A program made the translations under genes and the position numbers. DNA of 29,303 nucleotides, from positions 1 through 29,303 of IMG/VR virus record IMGVR_UViG_3300031269_000067, one strand, 5' to 3'. Source of the stretch: a virus. Within the stretch, counting starts at the first letter, position 1. Each line of letters starts with the position of its first letter. The notes under the pieces are model-generated. The model searched no databases. It saw only the letters and a program-made list of their open reading frames with translations, and had not been told where the DNA came from. Below are positions 12,821 through 28,575 of this stretch, in pieces.

Positions 12821-13237
12821 ATGCTCCAATGGATAGGGGCGGACATGTGGCTATTCCACCCAGACAAGGAGTTTCCCTTTACTTTCACCCGTGGTAACGG
12901 TGAATTAATCACGGTAGGCCAGTTTCGCGACAAGATGGTCTCGTTTGGCACCGATGGGGGTTCTATCCCAGATTACATTCGCGGCCTTCCCAACCTCTCT
13001 CGCTGGCACTACGGCGCGGCATATCTTATCCATGATTGGCTGTGGCACATCCATAAACAGGGCTGGGGAGTATACACTTTTCAAGAGACAAATATCATTC
13101 TTTGCGAGGCTGTGAAGACTTTGATCGAAACAGGCTACGTCGGCCATGATACTTTTAAGGGCGATGCAGGCACGACGATGAATATTCATCGTGGCGTTTC
13201 CTCGTTTTTTGGGCATAAGATTTGGAGTAGGGAATAA
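12821..13237 (+). CDS. DUF1353 family phage protein
   Basis: A protein of 138 residues with this start. It shows the DUF1353 pattern: an N-terminal WLFHPDKEFPFTF strand, then SFGTDGGSIPDYIRG (family GF-x-TD-x-x-S-x-P), then RWHYGAAYLIHDWLWH (family A-x-x-x-HD-x-x-Y). Function is not established for the family; the HD pair and TDG suggest a metal site or structural role. The frame is open back to ATG 12719, but those 34 extra codons run straight through the strong terminator hairpin at 12751-12808. I therefore prefer ATG 12821. ATG 12845, preceded by AGGGG at 12835-12839, is a third option. The stop is one base before the next gene. Confidence 0.65.
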   Translation: MLQWIGADMWLFHPDKEFPFTFTRGNGELITVGQFRDKMVSFGTDGGSIPDYIRGLPNLSRWHYGAAYLIHDWLWHIHKQGWGVYTFQETNIILCEAVKTLIETGYVGHDTFKGDAGTTMNIHRGVSSFFGHKIWSRE

Positions 13238-13238
13238 C

Positions 13239-14354
13239 ATGGCGTCTACCGCATATAAACAAGCATACAAAGAGGCACTAGCGGCAGCTAAGAGCAATGT
13301 GGTGATGCTGCACACTCTTGAAATTACCAGCGAGCTAGCTTCTACGGAGGTAAAAGATATTGATGTCTGTTTTGTTGTAGATGATACGAGTTCTATGTCA
13401 AGTGAAATCAATAGCCTGGTGACGGTGCTCCCTGCCGTTGTCACTAGCCTTTCAGAACGTTTTAGAACAGTGCGTGTCGGGCTGACTAGGTTTAAAGATG
13501 AAGACGACACTACGGTAGTCAAAAACCTAACAACAGATGTCGCTTCTGTGCAAGCGGAGATGGCGGCTTTGGTGGCAAGCGGAGGCGGTGATGGTCCAGA
13601 GAATGGTTTCGGTGCTACCGTACAGGCAGCACAATCTATGGTGTGGTCTACCTCTTACAGCACCCGCCGTAACATTGTTTTGATCACCGATGCGGTAAGT
13701 TTTGAGACAGGCGACGAGGGGAATAGCGGCATAAATCATACTGCTGGTGCGACAGAACAGCAGGCCCTGGACGCTTTGACTTCTCGTAATATACGATTTA
13801 TTCTAGGAGCCACATCTTCTTTTTCTAACTACAACTACGGAAACTTGGTAGCTGATACAAATGGGGTAGTGGTGCCTAGATTTCATGTAGATCCACTAGA
13901 AGATTTAGTGGCTGCACTGAAGTTAGTTCTAGTGGTAGACCCTAACCTAGAGCCCATATACATTATACAAGCAAGGCAACCATATGAGCTGACTTTGGAG
14001 AACGGGGAATCCAAAGTATTCGAACCTGTTGCTTTCCGTTTCACACTACCTGGGCAAGATGACCAAGGTTTGCAAGACCTCAACATCACAATCGATAATG
14101 TCGACAAACGTATAGGTGATTGGGTGGAAGCTGCAAGTGCTTATGATGCTCCCGCCTTAGTCCGTTACCGACCTTACCTAAGTACAGATCTGACCACACC
14201 CCAAATGGACCCTCCCTTGACTCTTACTCTCAGTGATATCAAGCGAACCTCTTTTGAGGTATCGGGTCGCGCCAGTGTCGCTGATATTGTCAATTTAAAG
14301 TTCCTCCGCTTGCTTTATTTGCGCAGTCGCTTCCCATCACTCGGCAACACTTAA
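13239..14354 (+). CDS. DUF1833-type tail protein with inserted von Willebrand A domain
   Basis: A 371-residue protein from ATG 13239. The first 32 residues (KEALAAAKSNVVMLHTLEI) and residues from about 238 to the end (EPIYIIQARQPYELTLENGE; VAFRFTLPG; LNITIDNVDKRI; YRPYLSTDLTTPQMDPPLTL; FPSL at the end) together make a complete DUF1833 tail-tip protein of about 170 residues. Between them, residues 33-235 form a vWA domain: the metal-ion-dependent adhesion site DDTSSM (48-53), Thr83 in VGLTRFKD, and Asp151 in VLITDA. vWA domains bind protein ligands through a divalent metal. DUF1833 proteins precede NlpC/P60 and gpJ genes, as here. An insertion displayed at the tail tip would suit receptor contact. 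An upstream in-frame GTG at 13191 lies inside the previous gene and is rejected. Confidence 0.8.
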   Translation: MASTAYKQAYKEALAAAKSNVVMLHTLEITSELASTEVKDIDVCFVVDDTSSMSSEINSLVTVLPAVVTSLSERFRTVRVGLTRFKDEDDTTVVKNLTTDVASVQAEMAALVASGGGDGPENGFGATVQAAQSMVWSTSYSTRRNIVLITDAVSFETGDEGNSGINHTAGATEQQALDALTSRNIRFILGATSSFSNYNYGNLVADTNGVVVPRFHVDPLEDLVAALKLVLVVDPNLEPIYIIQARQPYELTLENGESKVFEPVAFRFTLPGQDDQGLQDLNITIDNVDKRIGDWVEAASAYDAPALVRYRPYLSTDLTTPQMDPPLTLTLSDIKRTSFEVSGRASVADIVNLKFLRLLYLRSRFPSLGNT

Positions 14355-17820: not shown

Positions 17821-18393
17821 CTACAGTCGAATTACATTACCAACTTCAAGTTCTGGGATATGCGTCACCATAATAAACTGAATGCCAAGTTCGCTTGAAA
17901 GTAAATTAAGCATGGAGGCGACTCTTCCCCTGTATGTTTTAGATAGAAACTTAAAGGGCTCATCTAGTATTACTGCTCTCCTTAGCGGTGGTCTAGAAAC
18001 CATTAAGCAAGAAATACGCAAGGCAAAGGCTGCTATATCAACCGCACCACCACCACTCCCCGCCATAGGGTCAACTTCTTCCCCATTACGGATGAAGACA
18101 AGCTTTGCTTCTGTTTTTCCCCGTTTTTGTTCAAAGATAATACTAAACTCGTAAGCTTCTTCCTCAAATATAGTTTGCAGGCATTTAGTGACAATACTAC
18201 TTATCTTCTTATGCGCTTTCTCTTGGACTATGGTGGCAACGGTCTGTGCAATGGCATTAGCATCATCCGCCCACTCTACTTTTAGTGCAGTTTCTTCTAA
18301 GAACTCTTGTTCACGCTTTACATCACGTTTAGCCAACAAAAAGTCTTCATAGAGATTTTCTACAATTTCGCTTATATCAGATACCGAGCTCAT
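17821..18393 (-). CDS. SbcC/Rad50-like ATPase, C-terminal half (separate gene)
   Basis: A 190-residue protein. Residues 1-60 are a short coiled coil (LAKRDVKREQEFLEETALK). Then comes the ATPase C-lobe: signature motif SGGGAVDIAAFALR (113-126), Walker B RRAVILDEPF with Asp144 and Glu145, and the H-loop MVTHIPEL with His178. There is no Walker A and no zinc hook. Both are in the separate gene at 19984-21030, and the two together (538 residues) match the size of a T4 gp46-type protein. They should assemble into one ATP-driven DNA-end processing complex with the SbcD-like nuclease. The ATG overlaps the end of the coiled-coil gene by 17 bases. It is the last gene of the leftward operon. Confidence 0.85.
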   Translation of the reverse strand: MSSVSDISEIVENLYEDFLLAKRDVKREQEFLEETALKVEWADDANAIAQTVATIVQEKAHKKISSIVTKCLQTIFEEEAYEFSIIFEQKRGKTEAKLVFIRNGEEVDPMAGSGGGAVDIAAFALRISCLMVSRPPLRRAVILDEPFKFLSKTYRGRVASMLNLLSSELGIQFIMVTHIPELEVGNVIRL

Positions 18394-18622
18394 CTTTGTA
18401 TTTTTCTTGGAATGCTTGTGATTTTTCGTTAAAGGCCTCTTCTGCCTTGTCCCGCTCTTTTTCTTTTGTTTTTAATAGGGCTTTGGCCTCTTTAGCAGTC
18501 TTAACGCCAAATGTTTTCTTGAGGTCTTGGAGGGCATTGCTGTAAGCCCCTTTAGCGTTGTCAACTTCGGATTGCTTTGTAGCAATTTTTTCTTTTAGTT
18601 TATTGAATTGTTCTATCTTCAT
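18377..18622 (-). CDS. Small coiled-coil protein next to the split SbcC genes
   Basis: An 81-residue protein that is almost entirely charged helix: KLKEKIATKQSEVDNAKGAY, then a break at TFGVKTAKEAKALL, then KEKERDKAEEAFNEKSQAF. This is a two-helix coiled coil with a short turn. It overlaps the DUF3310 stop (ATGA) before it and the SbcC C-terminal gene by 17 bases after it. It could supply part of the returning arm that the short coiled coil of the C-terminal half lacks, or act as an independent partner. That link is inference from place and composition. No catalytic motif, signal or membrane segment is present. Confidence 0.6.
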   Translation of the reverse strand: MKIEQFNKLKEKIATKQSEVDNAKGAYSNALQDLKKTFGVKTAKEAKALLKTKEKERDKAEEAFNEKSQAFQEKYKDELGI

Positions 18623-19059
18623 AATGCTCGTAATAAGTATGTTCTTGCTCTGCGTAAAAATGCTTTTGTTGCCCCGTGCCTATGGCATCTTATAAGGGCA
18701 TGAATCGCTGTTTTGATGTTTTGGTCCTTAAACCCACCAACAATGCTAGAGCAATTATCTTTCAAGAAAAATGCAACCTCTGTTGGCACTTGTATTTGAA
18801 TAACTTGCGCATTCAACATAGGGTATTCTTTTGGCAAACGGCTTCGCTGCCATTCAGCATCTTCATTTAAGTGGCGGTTGATATACCAAATAGCTTTGTT
18901 AATGTCTTGGGTTGCTAGGTCTTTTTTAAGCCCCGCCCTCCATACATATTTAATTGCATTACCAACATTGAAACCAAACCATTGACAAACGTCGATACAT
19001 TCAATTCCGCTCTTGTGCTGGTTGTAGTGTGTGGGGTTACTTACTTGTTCTGTTTTCAT
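18619..19059 (-). CDS. DUF3310 protein
   Basis: A 146-residue protein with the clear DUF3310 pattern in its first 65 residues: NPTHYNQHKSGIECIDVCQ, then GNAIKYVWRAGLKK, then DINKAIWYINRHL. The family is widespread in phages near nucleotide metabolism and replication genes; it is sometimes labelled nucleotide-kinase-like, but no reaction is firmly known to me. Residues 80-146 form a second, basic helical part with no recognised domain (RCHRHGATKAFLRRARTYLL). The ATG overlaps the SbcD stop and its own stop overlaps the next ATG, both as ATGA, placing it inside a tightly coupled SbcD-to-SbcC run. Confidence 0.82.
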   Translation of the reverse strand: MKTEQVSNPTHYNQHKSGIECIDVCQWFGFNVGNAIKYVWRAGLKKDLATQDINKAIWYINRHLNEDAEWQRSRLPKEYPMLNAQVIQIQVPTEVAFFLKDNCSSIVGGFKDQNIKTAIHALIRCHRHGATKAFLRRARTYLLRAL

Positions 19060-19994
19060 TTATTTTCTGTTATGTCTAGTAGTATTTTTTTGACGTGTTT
19101 ATTTACTTTTTTATCTTTGATGTATTTAATTAAAATTTCTACAAAATCTAGGCCGTTGCTTTCTGCACTTTCAAGCTCTTCTATAAAACCGCTAACGTCA
19201 ACACCATCAATCTCCCCTACCATATCGCGCAGGGTGTGTGGGTTGATAAAAACATCCTTTTCGCAGTCTAGGTAAACTCTTTCTATGCTACCATCATTAA
19301 AAAGCAAACCCATTGATGGCGTGGAGTTTATTTCGTCTGATTTGCGCCTCATGAAACCGCCATTGTTCAATATAGTGGTTGCACCGCTTTTTATCAAGAA
19401 GCCTTTGTGGTTATCTCCAAATAAAGCGGCATCGTACCCTTTAAGTTTCTTTTTGTAAGCTACGGCATTTTGTGATTTAGAAGCCCCCGTGTAGGTGTTC
19501 TCTTTGTGCCAGCAGTAAGCGTGAATTACAGCTAAGTGAATTACGCCTTTTGCAAACGCGGAACTTGTTTGAGGCTTTATGGGAAAACCCCATGGAAATC
19601 CATGTAAAACCAATTTACTCTCTTTTACATAAATAGGCTTGTCAGGTTCTACCAGTTTAATGCACCCCCCTTTAACAAGAACTCCAAAGGCACTACCGTC
19701 CATTGCATCATAGTCATGGTATGGTAGGTCGTGCTGCCCAGGAATAGCGTAGTCATCTTTTAAGTAGTCCCATGCCATATTTATTAAGGTGCTGGATTCT
19801 TTTTCTCGTGATTTGTCAAATATGTCACCACCTATAATTCCAGGTATTGAATGCCGTTGTTTGAGATCAGCCCACTGTTGTAGGTAGGACTCTTGCCTAC
19901 CAAGCCAATTTTTTTCATTGCTACGGGCAATGGGGGGAGTGGCTGATAAGTGAATATCACTTACTAGGGATGCAATTGGTTTTTTAGTGCTCAT
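19056..19994 (-). CDS. SbcD/Mre11-like metallophosphoesterase nuclease (gp47-like)
   Basis: A 312-residue protein with the calcineurin-type phosphoesterase motifs in order: VSDIHLS (Asp13, His15), IIGGDIFDK (Asp57), PGQHDLPYH (Gln87, His88, Asp89), VIHAY (His158) and FGDNHKG (Asp194, His196). The usual Asn of GNHD is Gln here. Together with the SbcC-like ATPase it should trim DNA ends and hairpins with manganese, feeding recombination-dependent replication as T4 gp46/gp47 do. It lies between the two SbcC half genes and overlaps the upstream half by eleven bases and DUF3310 by four. The C-terminal part after residue 240 is the region expected to bind the ATPase coiled coil. Confidence 0.88.
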   Translation of the reverse strand: MSTKKPIASLVSDIHLSATPPIARSNEKNWLGRQESYLQQWADLKQRHSIPGIIGGDIFDKSREKESSTLINMAWDYLKDDYAIPGQHDLPYHDYDAMDGSAFGVLVKGGCIKLVEPDKPIYVKESKLVLHGFPWGFPIKPQTSSAFAKGVIHLAVIHAYCWHKENTYTGASKSQNAVAYKKKLKGYDAALFGDNHKGFLIKSGATTILNNGGFMRRKSDEINSTPSMGLLFNDGSIERVYLDCEKDVFINPHTLRDMVGEIDGVDVSGFIEELESAESNGLDFVEILIKYIKDKKVNKHVKKILLDITENK

Positions 19995-21030
19995 GTTCTA
20001 CTTCGCTTCCGCAAAGGGGGCATACTCCCTTTGAATTAAGTTTTAACTCTTCTTTAAGTTCTTCTAGTATTTGTTGTTTTTCTGTGATAGTTTGTTTTAG
20101 GGTTTCACATGATTGTATGCAATCCCCTAGCCTCGCGCACTGTTCTTTACTTTCTTTGTAAGCTATCAACACGTCGCCCAGCAAGGTGCAGCTTTTTTGC
20201 ATCTGCTTTACCACGTCCTCTTGTTTGAGTGTTTCCTGTAAATCATGCAAATCATCGAGCTTTTCTTCTAATTTCAAGCAGGTTTTGTTTAGGGCTACCA
20301 GCCCCTCGCCTAGCTCTACTACAATACCGCCGCCCTGCACTACCGATCCGGCGCGTTTGCCCCTCTCTCGGTGCCTATGTAGCTGCCCTATGCCCTCGGC
20401 TAATTGTAGGGCATCCTGGCGGGTAGTCAACATAACCCCCTCGGCCTCGAGCACTACGTCCCACTTTTCTTTAACAACCTCAATAAAGCTTAAATCATCT
20501 AAAGCTTCCTTTGCTTTTAGTAACCGTCCTTCTGTTACAGCAAATTCACTCTTACGCCTTTTTAGAAGTGAGTGGGTTTCTTTAAGGGTTACATCAATTA
20601 CGCCTAGGTCAATTATTTCGTTCAATTGCCTACTAACCTCCCCCGCACTCTCACCAAACCAATATTCATTGTCATGCTGTTGGTGGATGTTTATTTTATT
20701 GATGCACAAAAAGTCTTGAATGGGATCAGGTACCTTAGCCCCAAAAGCCTCAAATAATTCATCGCCTAGTTGGTATTGGTTTTCTTTGCTACTTTTCTTT
20801 CTTGTTAGGGTTACTTTTTCTGAAAGCCTTATTTTAACCTCTACCTCATCAGTGCCCCATGCCTTGAACCCGATGCCTCCAGGTGTATTTCTCAAGCACC
20901 ATACTAAAGATCTTACAATAGAGGATTTTCCACAATCTGTGGGTCCCACTATTACGTTGACACCTTTAGTAAAAGACAGTTTTAGGTTTTTATGCTTTTG
21001 AAAGTTTTTTATTTTTGCACCTAATATCAT
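19984..21030 (-). CDS. SbcC/Rad50-like ATPase, N-terminal half ending at the zinc hook
   Basis: A 348-residue protein. The ATPase N-lobe has a Walker A motif GPTDCGKSS (29-37) and a Q-loop IHQQHDNEYW (about 115-124). A long coiled coil runs from about 150 to 330. The zinc-hook motif CPLCG has cysteines 337 and 340, and the protein stops seven residues later. In ordinary SbcC, Rad50 or gp46 the hook is in the middle of the chain, followed by the returning coil and C-lobe. Here those are encoded separately at 17821-18393. This is a clean gene split rather than decay: the stop overlaps the SbcD start, and both halves keep all expected motifs. Start and stop codons overlap both neighbours. Confidence 0.87.
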   Translation of the reverse strand: MILGAKIKNFQKHKNLKLSFTKGVNVIVGPTDCGKSSIVRSLVWCLRNTPGGIGFKAWGTDEVEVKIRLSEKVTLTRKKSSKENQYQLGDELFEAFGAKVPDPIQDFLCINKINIHQQHDNEYWFGESAGEVSRQLNEIIDLGVIDVTLKETHSLLKRRKSEFAVTEGRLLKAKEALDDLSFIEVVKEKWDVVLEAEGVMLTTRQDALQLAEGIGQLHRHRERGKRAGSVVQGGGIVVELGEGLVALNKTCLKLEEKLDDLHDLQETLKQEDVVKQMQKSCTLLGDVLIAYKESKEQCARLGDCIQSCETLKQTITEKQQILEELKEELKLNSKGVCPLCGSEVEHEH

Positions 21031-23605: not shown

Positions 23606-24499
23606 CTATATATCCCAGAATGTTTTTGTTTTTCCTTTAATAAGGGTTCCCTGTGTGGGTAGTAGGCTCTTAAAACCAAGCTCCTTACACATAACAGTGA
23701 AGCCTTTTTGGTTGTATGCGTCTTTCTTTATTTTGCAACGCTTGGTTCCCTCTAGGGGCAGCTTTACAATGGGAAGGTTAGTGGCTATGATGCCATTTTT
23801 ATTATCAAGGTCTTGTGTAACATCTAAAAACTTTTTGCCGCTACTTATCTCTCCGCGCAAAAACTTCGCAGCCGTAAGCTCACCGACACCTTTAATGCCT
23901 TTTACCTCATCACTTGAGCACCCAGCTATAGCCTTCACCATAGCCCACTGGGGGGCTTCAATGCCCCACTCATCTTCAAAAGACTCTTCTGTTACAATTT
24001 GGTCTCTTTTATTGGGGTTATAGAAATCAACATTAGGCCGCAAGCATTGATACATGTCCTTGTCCGCCGTAACAATAACCGCCTTATGGTTCTCTGGGAC
24101 ACGGGCAGCTATATCGGCAATCACGTCATCACCCTCGTAGCCTTTTTGGTAGAAGACGTTGCTAAAACCTATCAAGGCCAGCCACTTGTCTCGGAGGCCA
24201 TCTATTTGGTCGTGTAGGGCTTCTCTAAGTAACTGCTTTTCTTCATCCTCATTGGCTTTTTCGTCTTGTCGTTTTTGCTTATAGCCATCATATAATTTAT
24301 AGCGTTTGCCGTAACCATAGTCAAAGCAAAACAACATACGCTTAGTATTGAAACGGTTGCAAAGCTCTTGGCAATCCTTGATAAAGCCGTAAATAACCCC
24401 TGTCGGCTTCCCCCCAAAGGCTAGCCCCTCCATGCTATGGAAAGCCCTATGACAGAGGAAACTTACGTCAATGATTAAGTATGTGTTTTGTTTAGTCAT
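23606..24499 (-). CDS. FEN/PIN-type 5'-3' exonuclease (T4 RNase H-like)
   Basis: A 297-residue protein from ATG 24499; upstream in-frame codons fall inside the recombinase gene. Acidic metal-binding residues appear in family order: Asp11 in IIDVSF, Asp60 in FCFDYG followed by the basic GYKQKR region, GYEGDD (Glu122, Asp124, Asp125), VTADKD (Asp146, Asp148), then the helix-hairpin-helix region CSSDEVKGIKGVGELTAAKF (Asp197). The enzyme would remove RNA primers and 5' flaps, working with the polymerase and SSB encoded upstream. It overlaps the recombinase stop by eight bases. The length is close to that of T4 RNase H and similar phage enzymes. Confidence 0.88.
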   Translation of the reverse strand: MTKQNTYLIIDVSFLCHRAFHSMEGLAFGGKPTGVIYGFIKDCQELCNRFNTKRMLFCFDYGYGKRYKLYDGYKQKRQDEKANEDEEKQLLREALHDQIDGLRDKWLALIGFSNVFYQKGYEGDDVIADIAARVPENHKAVIVTADKDMYQCLRPNVDFYNPNKRDQIVTEESFEDEWGIEAPQWAMVKAIAGCSSDEVKGIKGVGELTAAKFLRGEISSGKKFLDVTQDLDNKNGIIATNLPIVKLPLEGTKRCKIKKDAYNQKGFTVMCKELGFKSLLPTQGTLIKGKTKTFWDI

Positions 24500-25634
24500 A
24501 TTTGCGCTTTCTGTCGGCGAAGTCCTTACCAATAAGTTCTTCAATCTCGTCCCAGCAGTCTTGCACCACTTCACGAAGGTCTGTGTAAAGGTCTTCCTTC
24601 TCAATGTGTGTTATTAGGTCCTTACGGTTGCCCTTGAACTCAAGCTCTTCGGCGTTAATGATTTGCCCAGACTTTTTCCAATACCCCTCCCCCAGGAGGT
24701 AGTCAATACAAGAGCCAATATCATCTATACCAAACTTACGGTATATGGGAATCTCCACAGTACCAGTGTTCCCTGAGTAGCGGTTCTTGGCAAAAACCAC
24801 TCTAGCTATGGTCCCTAGCTTGCGTGATTTCTTTTTAATCTCCTTAGTAAGCATTTTACCCACTGAGATCCAAATCTCTATGTTAGCGTAAAATTTAAGC
24901 GCCTTACCACCGCTTCTTGTTTTCTTAGGATCAAACAAACCACCCCCTACATTATCTCTTGTTTGGGATAGGATGATAAGTATGCACCCATGATCAGCGA
25001 ACTTCTTACAAGCTGCGCGTAAGTTCTCTGAGTGTTTCTTCGCCTTACCATCCCCATAGCTCCCTGTGAATTCTTTTCTCTTAGCCCTAGCCTCTTTTTG
25101 CTCTTTTGCTTTGTCAAGTTCGTAGTCACTTGTAAGACCATTCTCGGAGTCAAGCACGTAAATAAATGGTCTACCATGCCCCTCTACTTTTTTCTTAGTC
25201 GTACCCCCCCGCTCGGTACGGCTCCCCCCTAGCATGTTGATAAAAGCATCGTCCATGTTGTCGTAGAAATCCTCTACCCTATCACTCACCCCATTGTGGG
25301 GGGCAACTATACGGGCGCTGGCTTTCTTACCAAAGAAGAATTTCATATCAAAGTGAGCCCCATCTTCGCTATTATCAAATATAAAGTCGTAGTTATCAAA
25401 GTTGGGGTTTTGGTTGGCCTCTGCTAGGCATGTAAGTGTCAGGATAGTTTTACCAGCACTAGAGTCACCGATGATAAAGTGGTAGCCACCTTTAACGTAG
25501 AAAGCGTCTGTCCTTCCTGTGGCGGTTAAATTCATTAACGTGCAACCAGAGTCTAGTACTGTGTTGTCAGTTATTTTAAGTTTGAACGGTTTATTTTTAG
25601 CCGCTTTAATCAATGCTTCTTTTGTACTTGCCAT
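24492..25634 (-). CDS. RecA/UvsX-like recombinase
   Basis: A 380-residue protein. Walker A is GDSSAGKT (56-63), the Walker B strand is FIYVLDSENGL, and the later IILSQTRDNVGGG followed by SGGKALKFYANIEIW corresponds to the RecA L2 region, where G-G-x-A-L-x-F-Y/H is typical. The protein should form filaments on single-stranded DNA and drive strand exchange. A highly charged insert (KEQKEARAKRKEFTGSYGDGKAKK) lies at the L1/L2 side. The SSB and UvsY-like candidate upstream, and exonuclease and SbcCD downstream, make a full T4-like recombination set. A terminator separates it from the SSB gene, so its level may be set by read-through. Confidence 0.88.
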   Translation of the reverse strand: MASTKEALIKAAKNKPFKLKITDNTVLDSGCTLMNLTATGRTDAFYVKGGYHFIIGDSSAGKTILTLTCLAEANQNPNFDNYDFIFDNSEDGAHFDMKFFFGKKASARIVAPHNGVSDRVEDFYDNMDDAFINMLGGSRTERGGTTKKKVEGHGRPFIYVLDSENGLTSDYELDKAKEQKEARAKRKEFTGSYGDGKAKKHSENLRAACKKFADHGCILIILSQTRDNVGGGLFDPKKTRSGGKALKFYANIEIWISVGKMLTKEIKKKSRKLGTIARVVFAKNRYSGNTGTVEIPIYRKFGIDDIGSCIDYLLGEGYWKKSGQIINAEELEFKGNRKDLITHIEKEDLYTDLREVVQDCWDEIEELIGKDFADRKRKYD

Positions 25635-25686: not shown

Positions 25687-25721
25687 GAAAAAGGAGGCCT
25701 AAAGTTTCCTAAAGGCCTCCT
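25687..25721 (-). terminator. Intrinsic terminator between SSB and recombinase genes
   Basis: On the - strand, AGGAGGCCT (25721-25713) pairs with AGGCCTCCT (25700-25692) and TTTT follows. It lies 34 bases after the SSB stop and 53 bases before the recombinase start. Confidence 0.75.
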
Positions 25722-25755
25722 GTTGTGATTTTCATCTACTTACTGAGTGGAATTG

Positions 25756-26931
25756 CTAGTCCCAGTCCTCATCCTCATCCTCATCCTCATCCTCATCCTC
25801 ATCCTCATCCTCATCCTCATCCTCATCCTCATCCTCATCCTCATCGGGTTCTGGTTCTGGTTCTGGTTTTTTGGCCTTACCCTTACCCTTCTTTTTAGGC
25901 GCAGGCTCTTCCTCTTCCTCTTCCTCTTCTTCACTAGCGGCTGTTACCGCTTTACGAAGCTTTTTGAGGCCGAGTTTATTGTCCTTGAAGTCATCCACGT
26001 CAACATCAAGCTCATTGTCCTCGATGTATTCTTCAAGCTCGTCACGATCCATGTCGTCAACGTCTTTTTCGGATTCTTCCTCCTCTTCGGGCTCTTCCTC
26101 CTCGTCCTCGTCCTCCTCTTCCTCGGGGTCTGGTTTTTTGGCCTTACCCTTCTTTTTAGGCGCAGGCTCTTCCTCTTCCTCTTCCTCCTCTTCCTCGGCA
26201 TTGCCACCGTCGGTTTCAAGGAGTTTGGCTTGCAAGCTCTTGTAGCTCTCAACCTTTAGGAGCTCATCCAAGCAATGCACTTCATCCAAGATAGATTCTT
26301 CATAATCCTCACGGCGTGGCTTGAAGTCAATGCTAACAACCTCGTAGTACTTGAAGCTACCAAAGCTTTTCTCCTCCACACCACACTTGAGGCTAAAACC
26401 ACCATCAAGTTCTGCGAAGCGTTCGTAGCCATCATCCTCATCGCTATCATCAAGGCGTTTGGCAAGAAGCTTGCCAAACAGGTGAAAGCTAATGTCCCAT
26501 ACTTGGATGCCAGCTTCCTTGTCCTTGAGATTGCGCACGTTGAACAATTGGCGTTGCTTTGGCGCAAGGTCTTTGATCAGTTGCTCGTCACCACCATCGG
26601 CGGTAAGTTTAGCGCGATACTCACAGATAGGGCATTTGCCGCCACTTTGCTTCTTAGGGCACACGTAGCTGTCGCTCTCTGCCCCAATACCACGGTGAGC
26701 CCAGTATGTGGTTTCATACCAATAGTCACCATTCTCAGAGTTCTTGTTACCCTTACCCGCTTTAAAGGGTAAGATGTCAATCAAGATGGTTTTGGCATCT
26801 TTAAGCTTGAATTGCTTAACGCCATCGGGGAGAGCCAAGACTGTATCGTCAAAGCCCCCTGCTCCCATCTTTGCTGCTTTTTCCTTTGCGCGGTCCGCAA
26901 GGAGTGATTTCTTTTTTGTTTTCTTAGCCAT
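25756..26931 (-). CDS. gp32-like single-stranded DNA-binding protein with giant acidic tail
   Basis: A 391-residue protein. Residues 1-235 form a T4 gp32-like core: a basic N-terminal arm (AKKTKKKSLLADRAKEKAAKM) for cooperative binding and a zinc site with His79, Cys91, Cys100 and Cys103 (gp32 spacing H-x12-C-x9-C-x2-C; here 11, 8 and 2). Residues 237-391 are an acidic, low-complexity tail, far longer than in gp32. It is built of two copies of a poly-Glu/PAPKKKGKAKKP block (about 246-268 and 334-356), a small SAP-like helical piece between them (about 294-330), three Glu-Pro units and 13 Asp-Glu units. The acidic end of gp32 recruits partner proteins. The C-terminus DWD is strongly acidic with one aromatic residue. 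Confidence 0.85.
   Translation of the reverse strand: MAKKTKKKSLLADRAKEKAAKMGAGGFDDTVLALPDGVKQFKLKDAKTILIDILPFKAGKGNKNSENGDYWYETTYWAHRGIGAESDSYVCPKKQSGGKCPICEYRAKLTADGGDEQLIKDLAPKQRQLFNVRNLKDKEAGIQVWDISFHLFGKLLAKRLDDSDEDDGYERFAELDGGFSLKCGVEEKSFGSFKYYEVVSIDFKPRREDYEESILDEVHCLDELLKVESYKSLQAKLLETDGGNAEEEEEEEEEEPAPKKKGKAKKPDPEEEEDEDEEEEPEEEEESEKDVDDMDRDELEEYIEDNELDVDVDDFKDNKLGLKKLRKAVTAASEEEEEEEEEPAPKKKGKGKAKKPEPEPEPDEDEDEDEDEDEDEDEDEDEDEDEDEDWD
25768..25845 (-). repeat. Hexanucleotide tandem repeat, 13 copies, inside SSB gene
   Basis: Thirteen perfect copies of CTCATC on the + strand (GATGAG on the coding strand) encode alternating Asp and Glu. Copy number can change in steps of one unit without breaking the frame, so length variation by slippage is expected. 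The three TTCTGG units at 25849-25866 next to it encode Glu-Pro. Confidence 0.95.
25862..26190 (-). repeat. Pair of near-identical direct repeats in SSB gene
   Basis: A segment of about 60 bases at 25862-25928 recurs at 26130-26190 with one six-base insertion (ACCCTT, adding Lys/Gly codons) in the first copy. Both encode a Glu run followed by PAPKKKGK and KAKKP. The block between them encodes the acidic and SAP-like parts, so the tail looks like a duplicated module. Confidence 0.85.
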
Positions 26932-27007: not shown

Positions 27008-27460
27008 CTAGCTGCGGCCTCTTCTACTAACTGCTTTGTCTCTCTTAGCCCCAGTGTCTTTAGTTGGTTGGTCGCTATAGTAGGACATAGAGTAAAGACG
27101 TATTTGGCCTGTAATTGCCTCACGCTTTGCGTTAATGGCATTTGAGGCGGCGTAAAGTATATCACACCGCTCCTGCCATATTACTAATTTTTGTTTCAAT
27201 TTAACTAAAGCAGGTTCTCCCTCAACGACTGTTTTGATAGCACCCTCATTGAGGTTACGTATCCCATACTCGTCATGGTCTTCCCTTACCTTAGCTGTGA
27301 TCTCTGCCCTAACAATGTCAATTTGAATTTTAACCTTGTCACGCTCTGCCTTAGCCCTAGCAAAGCCTTTACCATACTTGAAGGTAAGGTTGGCTTGCTT
27401 ACTAACCTCATTCTCGAGGTTATAGGCGTCTAATTCAAAGTCTTTTTCGTTGGCTTTCAT
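27008..27460 (-). CDS. UvsY-like recombination mediator candidate
   Basis: A 150-residue helical protein from ATG 27460; an upstream TTG at 27481 is less likely. Segments LENEVSKQANLTFKYGKGFARAKAERDKVKIQ, broken by short turns, then NEGAIKTVVEG, then ILYAASNAINAKREAITGQIRLYS and YYSDQ near the end. This helical layout with a late A-x-x-x-R-K/E-x-L motif resembles small phage proteins annotated as UvsY-type mediators, which load recombinase on SSB-coated DNA. Position directly upstream of the SSB gene, with the recombinase next, fits. The basic C-terminal tail (DKAVSRRGRS) could contact DNA. The identification is from pattern and context, not from an alignment. Confidence 0.5.
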   Translation of the reverse strand: MKANEKDFELDAYNLENEVSKQANLTFKYGKGFARAKAERDKVKIQIDIVRAEITAKVREDHDEYGIRNLNEGAIKTVVEGEPALVKLKQKLVIWQERCDILYAASNAINAKREAITGQIRLYSMSYYSDQPTKDTGAKRDKAVSRRGRS

Positions 27461-27549
27461 TATAGTTAGGGGCGTCAGCAATAGAATTTACCATTACTAT
27501 CTTTAGTGTATTTGTATTTGGAAACATATTATTTATTTCGGTTTGTGGT

Positions 27550-28503
27550 TTATTCTGCTAGTCCGTTTATTACTTCGTAGCAGGCTGCGGTAAGACCCGC
27601 CTTTTTACTATCATAGAAATTATCTCTAAAGGCTACAATGACACTATAAGCACGGTTGCTCATCTTACCACCTTTGAGCAATAGGCTATTAGCTGCGCCT
27701 AGAACCATGTAGCGGATGCTCTCGGGGTCTTCCTCTATAGAGGACAATACCTTACTAACATCACTCCAACTAGCCCTAGGGTTATAAATCATTACTTTGC
27801 ACAATTCAAAGGCGGCAGCTTTGATGTCATTTTGTGAAATGGCTTTTAATTGCTCGGCCTCTGTGTCAAGCCCAATAATACTATTAAGCACCACCATCAC
27901 TTTTCGGCTACTAGCCAACTTACCACCATCAATAATACTTGCCTCATAGATGGCCTCTGATACATCCTCAGAAATGGTAACGCCCTCTTTCTTTGCCGTG
28001 TCCATTATAAGGGCATCCGCATTTGCTTGGCTAAGTGCTTTTACTTTGATCTCCGTGCAACGGGTCTTAATTGTGGCTAGGAGCTTTTGTGGGTCTGTCG
28101 TGCATAGCATGAAGTAAACATGCTCGGGGGTATCCTCTAGGATTTTAAGGAAACTGTTTTGGGCATCCTTTGTCATGGCATGGCACTCATCCACAAGGTA
28201 GATCCGTACACCACCCGTATTCATAGGGGCAAGCCCCATCGTGTCCTTAATAGAACGCACCATATCAATGCCCCGTGTCTCTGAGGCATTGATCTCTTTA
28301 AAGTCTCCTTTGTGGCACTTTAGCTTCTTTTGTAAGATACGGGCTATGGTCGTTTTACCACACCCCGAGGGTCCTGTGAATAGAAGGCTATGGGGTATGC
28401 CCCCACCTTTACCCATTTTAGCCAATGCCTTTACAGCATCTTCTTGCCCCACTAGGTCTTTGAAAGATTGTGGCCTGTGCCGTTTATATAGTTCTGTGCT
28501 CAT
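27550..28503 (-). CDS. Sliding clamp loader ATPase subunit (gp44/RFC-like)
   Basis: A 317-residue protein from ATG 28503, where the family N-terminus STELYKRHRPQSF begins. ATG 28572 is in frame but would add 23 proline-, glutamine- and lysine-rich residues. AAA+ motifs are GPSGCGKTT (44-52), Walker B LVDECHAM (Asp105, Glu106), sensor 1 in MLCTTDP (about 135), and TRC (147-149) in place of the SRC motif that contacts neighbouring subunits. A sensor 2 region with GGKLASSRK lies near residue 192. The size equals T4 gp44 (319 residues). No zinc finger of the DnaX type is present. It should open and close a sliding clamp for the polymerase encoded directly upstream. Confidence 0.85.
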   Translation of the reverse strand: MSTELYKRHRPQSFKDLVGQEDAVKALAKMGKGGGIPHSLLFTGPSGCGKTTIARILQKKLKCHKGDFKEINASETRGIDMVRSIKDTMGLAPMNTGGVRIYLVDECHAMTKDAQNSFLKILEDTPEHVYFMLCTTDPQKLLATIKTRCTEIKVKALSQANADALIMDTAKKEGVTISEDVSEAIYEASIIDGGKLASSRKVMVVLNSIIGLDTEAEQLKAISQNDIKAAAFELCKVMIYNPRASWSDVSKVLSSIEEDPESIRYMVLGAANSLLLKGGKMSNRAYSVIVAFRDNFYDSKKAGLTAACYEVINGLAE

Positions 28504-28575
28504 TTTTTGTTTATACTGATATTGGTGCTTTATCTTTGGTGGTGCGCTTTTCGGTGGTGCCATTCCTCCCATATT

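Follow-up and report, generated by a model that had tools for sequence, protein, structure and literature searches.

A T4 gp32-type single-stranded DNA-binding protein with an elaborate, fast-changing acidic tail in viral DNA

The window, that is the whole stretch of 29,303 nucleotides analysed here (IMG/VR virus record IMGVR_UViG_3300031269_000067), carries on its minus strand an ssb gene (25756..26931) encoding a 391-residue single-stranded DNA-binding protein (SSB) of the T4 gp32 type, identified by Pfam and PHROG matches and by a model of its core. The gp32-type core is of a known kind; what is new is an unusually elaborate and fast-changing version of a known regulatory tail. SSB tails act as a switch between the covering of ssDNA and the handover to partners. 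The reading that we favour, with moderate confidence and by analogy with studied SSBs, is that the acidic tail of the window protein would be autoinhibitory and partner-recruiting, and would have been enlarged by slippage of codon repeats together with the duplication of a block.

The window SSB scored 30.0 bits against the Pfam gp32 family (PF08804), above the gathering cut-off of 26.8, and matched PHROG 1192 (ssDNA-binding) with an E value of 6.7e-10. An AlphaFold2 model of the core (residues about 30-236), built from 18 family sequences, reached a pLDDT of 87.7. This model was matched to RB69 gp32 by Foldseek (E 3e-7, probability 1.00) and by VIA (Z 14.5 over 185 residues), and to T4 gp32 by VIA (Z 14.3), whereas the best unrelated structure gave only Z 4.8. 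The alignment and the model place within the OB-fold core (26224..26844, minus strand) the zinc-ligand pattern H79-x11-C91-x8-C100-x2-C103, H79, C91 and C100 being fully conserved and C103 almost fully; the pattern occurs in similar form in 191 of 197 family cores. As read from this sequence pattern, the core would hold a putative His-Cys3 metal site. Furthermore, the first 25 residues (26857..26931, minus strand) form a basic arm of net charge +7 at the position equivalent to the B domain of gp32, and in 167 of 170 members of the family this segment has a net positive charge. By its charge the arm is a candidate counterpart of the gp32 arm for cooperative ssDNA binding, and cooperativity of the window SSB is putative. 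A search of PDB sequences with the core profile gave no match, so that the family placement rests on Pfam, PHROG and the fold. The Pfam match, the zinc pattern and the model agree in placing the core among the T4 gp32-type SSBs. The antisense ORFs across the repeat (25747-26259, plus strand, and others) are mirror images of the repeat and were rejected as genes.

The ssb gene sits in an operon of clamp loader, UvsY-like, ssb and UvsX genes, all read from the minus strand. The clamp loader subunit (27550..28572; PHROG 5846, E 1.3e-56) was found upstream of ssb in 150 of 158 relatives, and the UvsX/RecA-like recombinase (24492..25634; PHROG 97, E 3.3e-28) downstream of it in 142 of the 147 relatives with room for the gene. 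A gene with detectable similarity to the UvsY-like recombination mediator of the window (27008..27481; Pfam UvsY, E 9.1e-5; PHROG 231, E 7.7e-8) lies upstream of ssb in 79 of 186. Just 3′ of the ssb stop, between ssb and the uvsX-like gene, a hairpin with a U run (25692..25721, minus strand; -21.4 kcal/mol, z -4.6) is a probable intrinsic terminator; a simple consensus terminator scan missed this hairpin. Elsewhere in the window, a minor tail protein (13191-14354, plus strand) bears DUF1833/phrog_396 in the C-terminal half and, at the N terminus, a von Willebrand factor A domain (VWA_4, E 1.9e-10) containing a DxSxS-like motif. Separate ORFs make up a Rad50/SbcC-like protein (17821-21030, minus strand): the Walker A half (19984-21030) ends in a zinc-hook-like CPLC, the ATPase half lies at 17821-18393, and an SbcD-like phosphoesterase (19056-19994) stands between the two.

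The C-terminal tail (residues 237-391; 25759..26223, minus strand) comprises 155 residues, including 86 D/E, 21 K/R and 11 P, with a net charge of -63. Read towards the C terminus, it consists of a Glu10-PAPKKKGKAKKP block (residues 247-267; 26129..26193), a second acidic tract EEEEDEDEEEEPEEEEE (26068..26127), a 46-residue SAP/Rho_N-like module, predicted to be helical (residues 288-333; 25933..26070; HMM and AlphaFold2), a Glu9-PAPKKKGKGKAKKP block (residues 334-356; 25862..25932), PEPEPEP, an (Asp-Glu)13 array (residues 363-388; 25768..25845) and DWD, the end of an acidic-Trp tip (DEDWD; 25759..25767), all on the minus strand. The earlier note, made from the letters alone, had counted 13 perfect Asp-Glu hexamers, and the array indeed holds exactly 13 GATGAG units, all perfect (Tandem Repeats Finder score 160). 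The internal duplication that it had proposed for the poly-Glu/PAPKKKGK block is equally clear, for of 65 aligned bases the two copies share 64, and the second copy additionally carries an insertion of 6 nt. This near-identity in DNA indicates a recent duplication at the DNA level rather than a convergent composition. Likewise, its figure of a few dozen residues for T4 gp32 agrees with the 48 residues (254-301) of the acidic C-domain of that protein (PMC5892887). The description of the tail as about 155 residues of acidic low-complexity sequence stood for the acidity but only in part for the low complexity.

The module was detected in the window at E 9.5e-7 by an HMM built from the tails of other phages only, and 200 shuffled versions of the window tail yielded no score near that. 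AlphaFold2 on the 46 residues, with the Edwardsiella module row left out, predicted helices at 9-18, 25-28 and 31-45 with a pLDDT of 89, the two longer ones being connected by a linker that contains the short one. Since a recurrent 46-residue module is predicted to be helical, the window tail is not uniformly of low complexity, and about 46 of its 155 residues are probably folded. The SAP-like piece noticed earlier between the duplicated blocks thus recurs in other tails of the family (E about 1e-6). A Pfam scan of the window piece gave no match, two of 11 module members show a weak Rho_N match (best E 0.0039), and Foldseek and VIA searches with the module found no PDB structure of note. From the predicted topology and the weak Rho_N match, we describe the module as SAP/Rho_N-like and not as a proven member, and DNA binding by it is putative. 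The top PDB sequence match of the module profile was a designed TIM barrel (5.7e-5), which we discounted as probably due to composition: no stretch passes alone, and the remaining PDB sequence matches have E 0.04 or worse. A search of the open-access literature brought up no description of SAP domains in the tails of phage SSBs. One tail (L180) carries the module in two copies. A protein of Edwardsiella phage vB_EpM_ZHS annotated as hypothetical (OM621816.1, 35716-37086) is a member of the SSB family, and its Arg/Asp-rich tail also contains the module.

The length of the tail changes between near-identical phages. A second IMG/VR contig (L002) differs from the window over 4681 bp by two substitutions, each of which lies in polA or close to it, and by two in-frame indels, deletions of 6 nt and 3 nt, both in Glu tracts of the tail. 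The 6-nt difference lies in the Glu run of the copy 1 block and the 3-nt difference in the second acidic tract, while the hexamer count is 13 in both contigs. The anticipated variation of repeat number between isolates was therefore found for poly-Glu, in L002 and in six further lineages, but not for the (Asp-Glu)13 array, which is constant in L002. The rate was estimated from 19 near-identical pairs, one per lineage: 13 indels fell in 6.6 kb of tail sequence and 3 in 95 kb of flanking DNA, which makes indels about 62 times as frequent in the tails (Fisher p 2e-13). In length, 12 of the 13 tail indels were multiples of three. Two pairs with cores more than 99.5% identical show larger changes, of 36 and 33 nt (L041/L043) and of 9, 30 and 30 nt (L070/L072). 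In the pair L164/L181 (99.9% identical), a 1-nt indel frameshifts the remainder of the tail; the tail of L142 is apparently frameshifted, and that of L152 is cut by a stop with an acidic ORF next to it. Such frameshifts may reflect genuine variation or errors of assembly.

Searches of viral contigs and of bacterial MAG contigs gave 197 ORFs of the family and 146 distinct complete tails; among 50,697 phage records the family is almost absent, with one good match (Edwardsiella phage ZHS) and a few weak ones. The tails have a median length of 133 residues (range 43-243) and are 38% acidic and 19% basic. A long tail is thus common in the family and not a peculiarity of this gene; that of the window is the 58th longest of the 146, and its net charge is the third most negative. 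The earlier note had held that relatives with short, fully functional tails would speak against its reading. Short tails, of 43-59 residues, are present, and tail length itself is therefore dispensable in the family. Five of them (L003, L166, L171, L173 and L178; 43-55 residues), which belong to the clade of the window, are 60-72% acidic and 0-7% basic and retain a terminal Trp or Phe, as expected if acidity plus the tip is the core function. The acidic-aromatic end looks like the minimal tail of this clade, and the lysine blocks and modules like additions. The tails of several relatives (L022, L024, L025) end in a basic run or are nearly neutral, unlike what a simple acidic clamp predicts.

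Gains and losses of modules were counted on a FastTree tree of the cores with motif patterns that are crude. The SAP/Rho_N-like module is present in 14 of the 144 tails on this tree, with at least 9 changes of state. The corresponding values are 89 tails and at least 15 changes for the C-terminal Cys motif CPxGxxFGxD...CxxCxxWxxC, 23 and at least 12 for a DnaJ-like CxxCxGxG element, and 11 (by pattern) and at least 7 for a Tudor/SH3-like domain. Tudor/SH3-like domains occur once or twice per tail (L120, L123, L127, L131, L133-L135, L137, L138, L148), and Pfam matches to Tudor, Myosin_N and RimP SH3 were mostly weak in the three tails scanned. The tips fall into classes: DDIPF/EDDIPY ends like the bacterial SSB-Ct (5 tails), acidic ends with a near-terminal Trp (the window type), and basic runs. 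Of the 57 tails without the Cys motif, 13 bear a Trp among the seven C-terminal residues, where 3.1 would be expected (p 1e-5, ignoring relatedness), a statistic that bears on the acidic-Trp tip of the window. The window ends in DEDEDWD and has no SSB-Ct-type I-P-F ending; DDIPF-type tips occur only in relatives. Copies of the bacterial SSB-Ct (DDIPF, EDDIPY or DDVPF) are terminal in L007, L013, L028, L029 and L059, and internal in the tails of L113, L130, L131 and L133-L135. Judged by these short motifs, SSB-Ct copies in gp32-type tails suggest the recruitment of host SSB-interacting proteins.

The order of the parts in the window protein (arm, core, acidic tracts, module and tip) matches that of gp32 on a larger scale, and from this we infer autoinhibition and recruitment; the mechanism is drawn from gp32, T7 gp2.5 and the Enc34 SSB. 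The C-domain of T4 gp32 occupies the ssDNA site until it is displaced, and a deletion of five residues there alters the binding kinetics (PMC5892887). The gp32 tail has two parts: a helical segment recruits Dda, and the acidic end behind it acts on ssDNA binding (PMC11551737). The Enc34 SSB binds dsDNA once its tail has been eliminated by removal of 21 residues (PMC5686142), and the length of D/E repeats has an optimum for the autoinhibition that speeds target search (PMC10250230). By analogy, the Glu and Asp-Glu tracts of the window protein off DNA would cover the cationic ssDNA groove of the core and the basic N-terminal arm; the covered SSB would be kept off dsDNA, and unproductive binding would be slowed. 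On ssDNA the tracts would be displaced and the tails would project from the filament, where module and tip may dock partners of replication and recombination, for example UvsX, UvsY or the polymerase. The lysine blocks between the acidic tracts may limit the net repulsion of neighbouring tails, and the repeat number would set the strength with which the tail competes with DNA. On grounds of homology, the suggestions of the earlier note that the alternating blocks could pack intramolecularly, drive condensation or recruit many partners are all plausible. The window tail is, however, far larger than gp32 requires for autoinhibition, which counts against this simple reading. It is doubtful that the tail goes further and constitutes a contingency-like length locus, in which slippage of Glu, Asp-Glu and lysine repeats would supply, in phage populations, standing tail-length variants tuning DNA competition or condensation, and in which the embedded modules, binding either DNA or protein, would be exchanged for one another as recruitment heads.

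The alternation of acidic and lysine blocks raises another explanation, in which the blocks of neighbouring SSBs would pair in trans and bring recombination proteins together with SSB and ssDNA in a replication body, its stability being set by the repeat number. Charge blockiness exceeds what composition predicts: z is 9.5 against shuffles for the window tail, the median is 6.2 with 73 of the first 83 tails examined above z 2, and the acidic/basic alternations average 5.0 versus 2.6 in shuffled tails. The blockiness may be partly a by-product of repeat expansion. The SSB of E. coli condenses, its disordered linker setting the propensity (PMC12143593; PMC11947617), and the phase separation of Ki-67 is reported to be regulated by charge blockiness (PMC9106583). 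However, the condensation of E. coli SSB requires Gly-rich linker regions (PMC12143593) and tetramers, the charge imbalance of the window tail favours repulsion over self-coacervation, and the short tails of several close relatives are nearly devoid of basic residues. The imbalance and these lysine-poor short tails make condensation less likely as the primary function, and we consider it unlikely.

The rapid change of the tail could also mean that function resides solely in the gp32-like core together with the extreme tip or the folded modules, the slippage tracts being tolerated and any soluble acidic linker being sufficient. The indel rate, the range of tail lengths and the many changes of state of the modules on the core tree fit such near-neutrality, as does the interchangeability of D with E and of K with R: the units of the acidic blocks differ by lineage (poly-E, poly-D, DE, DDT, DEA and others), and the D share runs from 0.10 to 0.94. 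Neutral slippage, however, should make tracts in other proteins and of other residues too. Strongly acidic stretches of 40 residues (60% D/E) are present in 62 of the 146 family tails. Across loci that add up to 1.31 Mb, with overlapping ones counted, just two other ORFs have a comparable stretch, and one of these two lies directly downstream of a truncated ssb. The near absence of acidic tracts from other ORFs shows that the acidity is specific to the SSB and argues for selection, and acidity is maintained by a wide variety of repeat units; we hold a near-neutral linker to be quite unlikely. Genome-wide slippage was rejected as the source of the acidity on the same count of two ORFs. That tail length is an assembly artefact, with copy numbers collapsed or inflated, is highly improbable: the contigs are metagenome-derived, frameshifted tails exist and single cases may be assembly errors, but the 78-bp (GATGAG)13 array is identical in the second contig, the differences between these two contigs over 4.7 kb are so few, the 30-36 nt indels exceed one-unit changes and nearly all indels are in frame, so that assembly error leaves the whole pattern of variation unexplained.

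Well over 100 natural variants of one gp32-type core are available, varying in the length, the charge pattern and the embedded modules of the tail, and near-isogenic pairs that differ essentially in tail repeats only provide a natural experiment on length versus charge pattern versus tip as the carrier of the regulation. The fast change of the tail makes the tuning of DNA binding by tail length testable.

Compared with known systems, the window SSB resembles T4 and RB69 gp32 in its OB-fold core (Z 14), its His-Cys3 zinc pattern, its basic N-terminal arm and its acidic C-terminal domain, and in having UvsX and UvsY genes alongside. It differs in the length of the tail (155 residues against 48), in a core identity of about 16% over the aligned part, and in the lysine blocks, the embedded helical module (as predicted), the perfect hexamers and the acidic-Trp tip. 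Bacterial SSB shares with it an acidic-aromatic tip at the end of a long disordered linker, and the relatives L007, L013, L028 and L029 come closest to the bacterial SSB-Ct by ending in DDIPF/EDDIPY; bacterial SSB belongs to another OB-fold family, whereas the window protein has a putative zinc site, a highly charged linker and a DEDWD tip. The SSBs T7 gp2.5 and Enc34 ORF6 also have an acidic C-terminal tail, which in their case regulates DNA binding, but they are SSBs of a different class, which cannot be sensibly aligned with gp32 in structure (PMC5686142). Eukaryotic D/E-repeat proteins of the HMGB1 type likewise carry a poly D/E tail beside a DNA-binding domain, and we count the length-dependent autoinhibition by that tail as a likeness to what is proposed for the window SSB; HMGB1 itself has an unrelated fold, binds dsDNA or distorted DNA, and bears a 30-residue tail without alternating lysine blocks.
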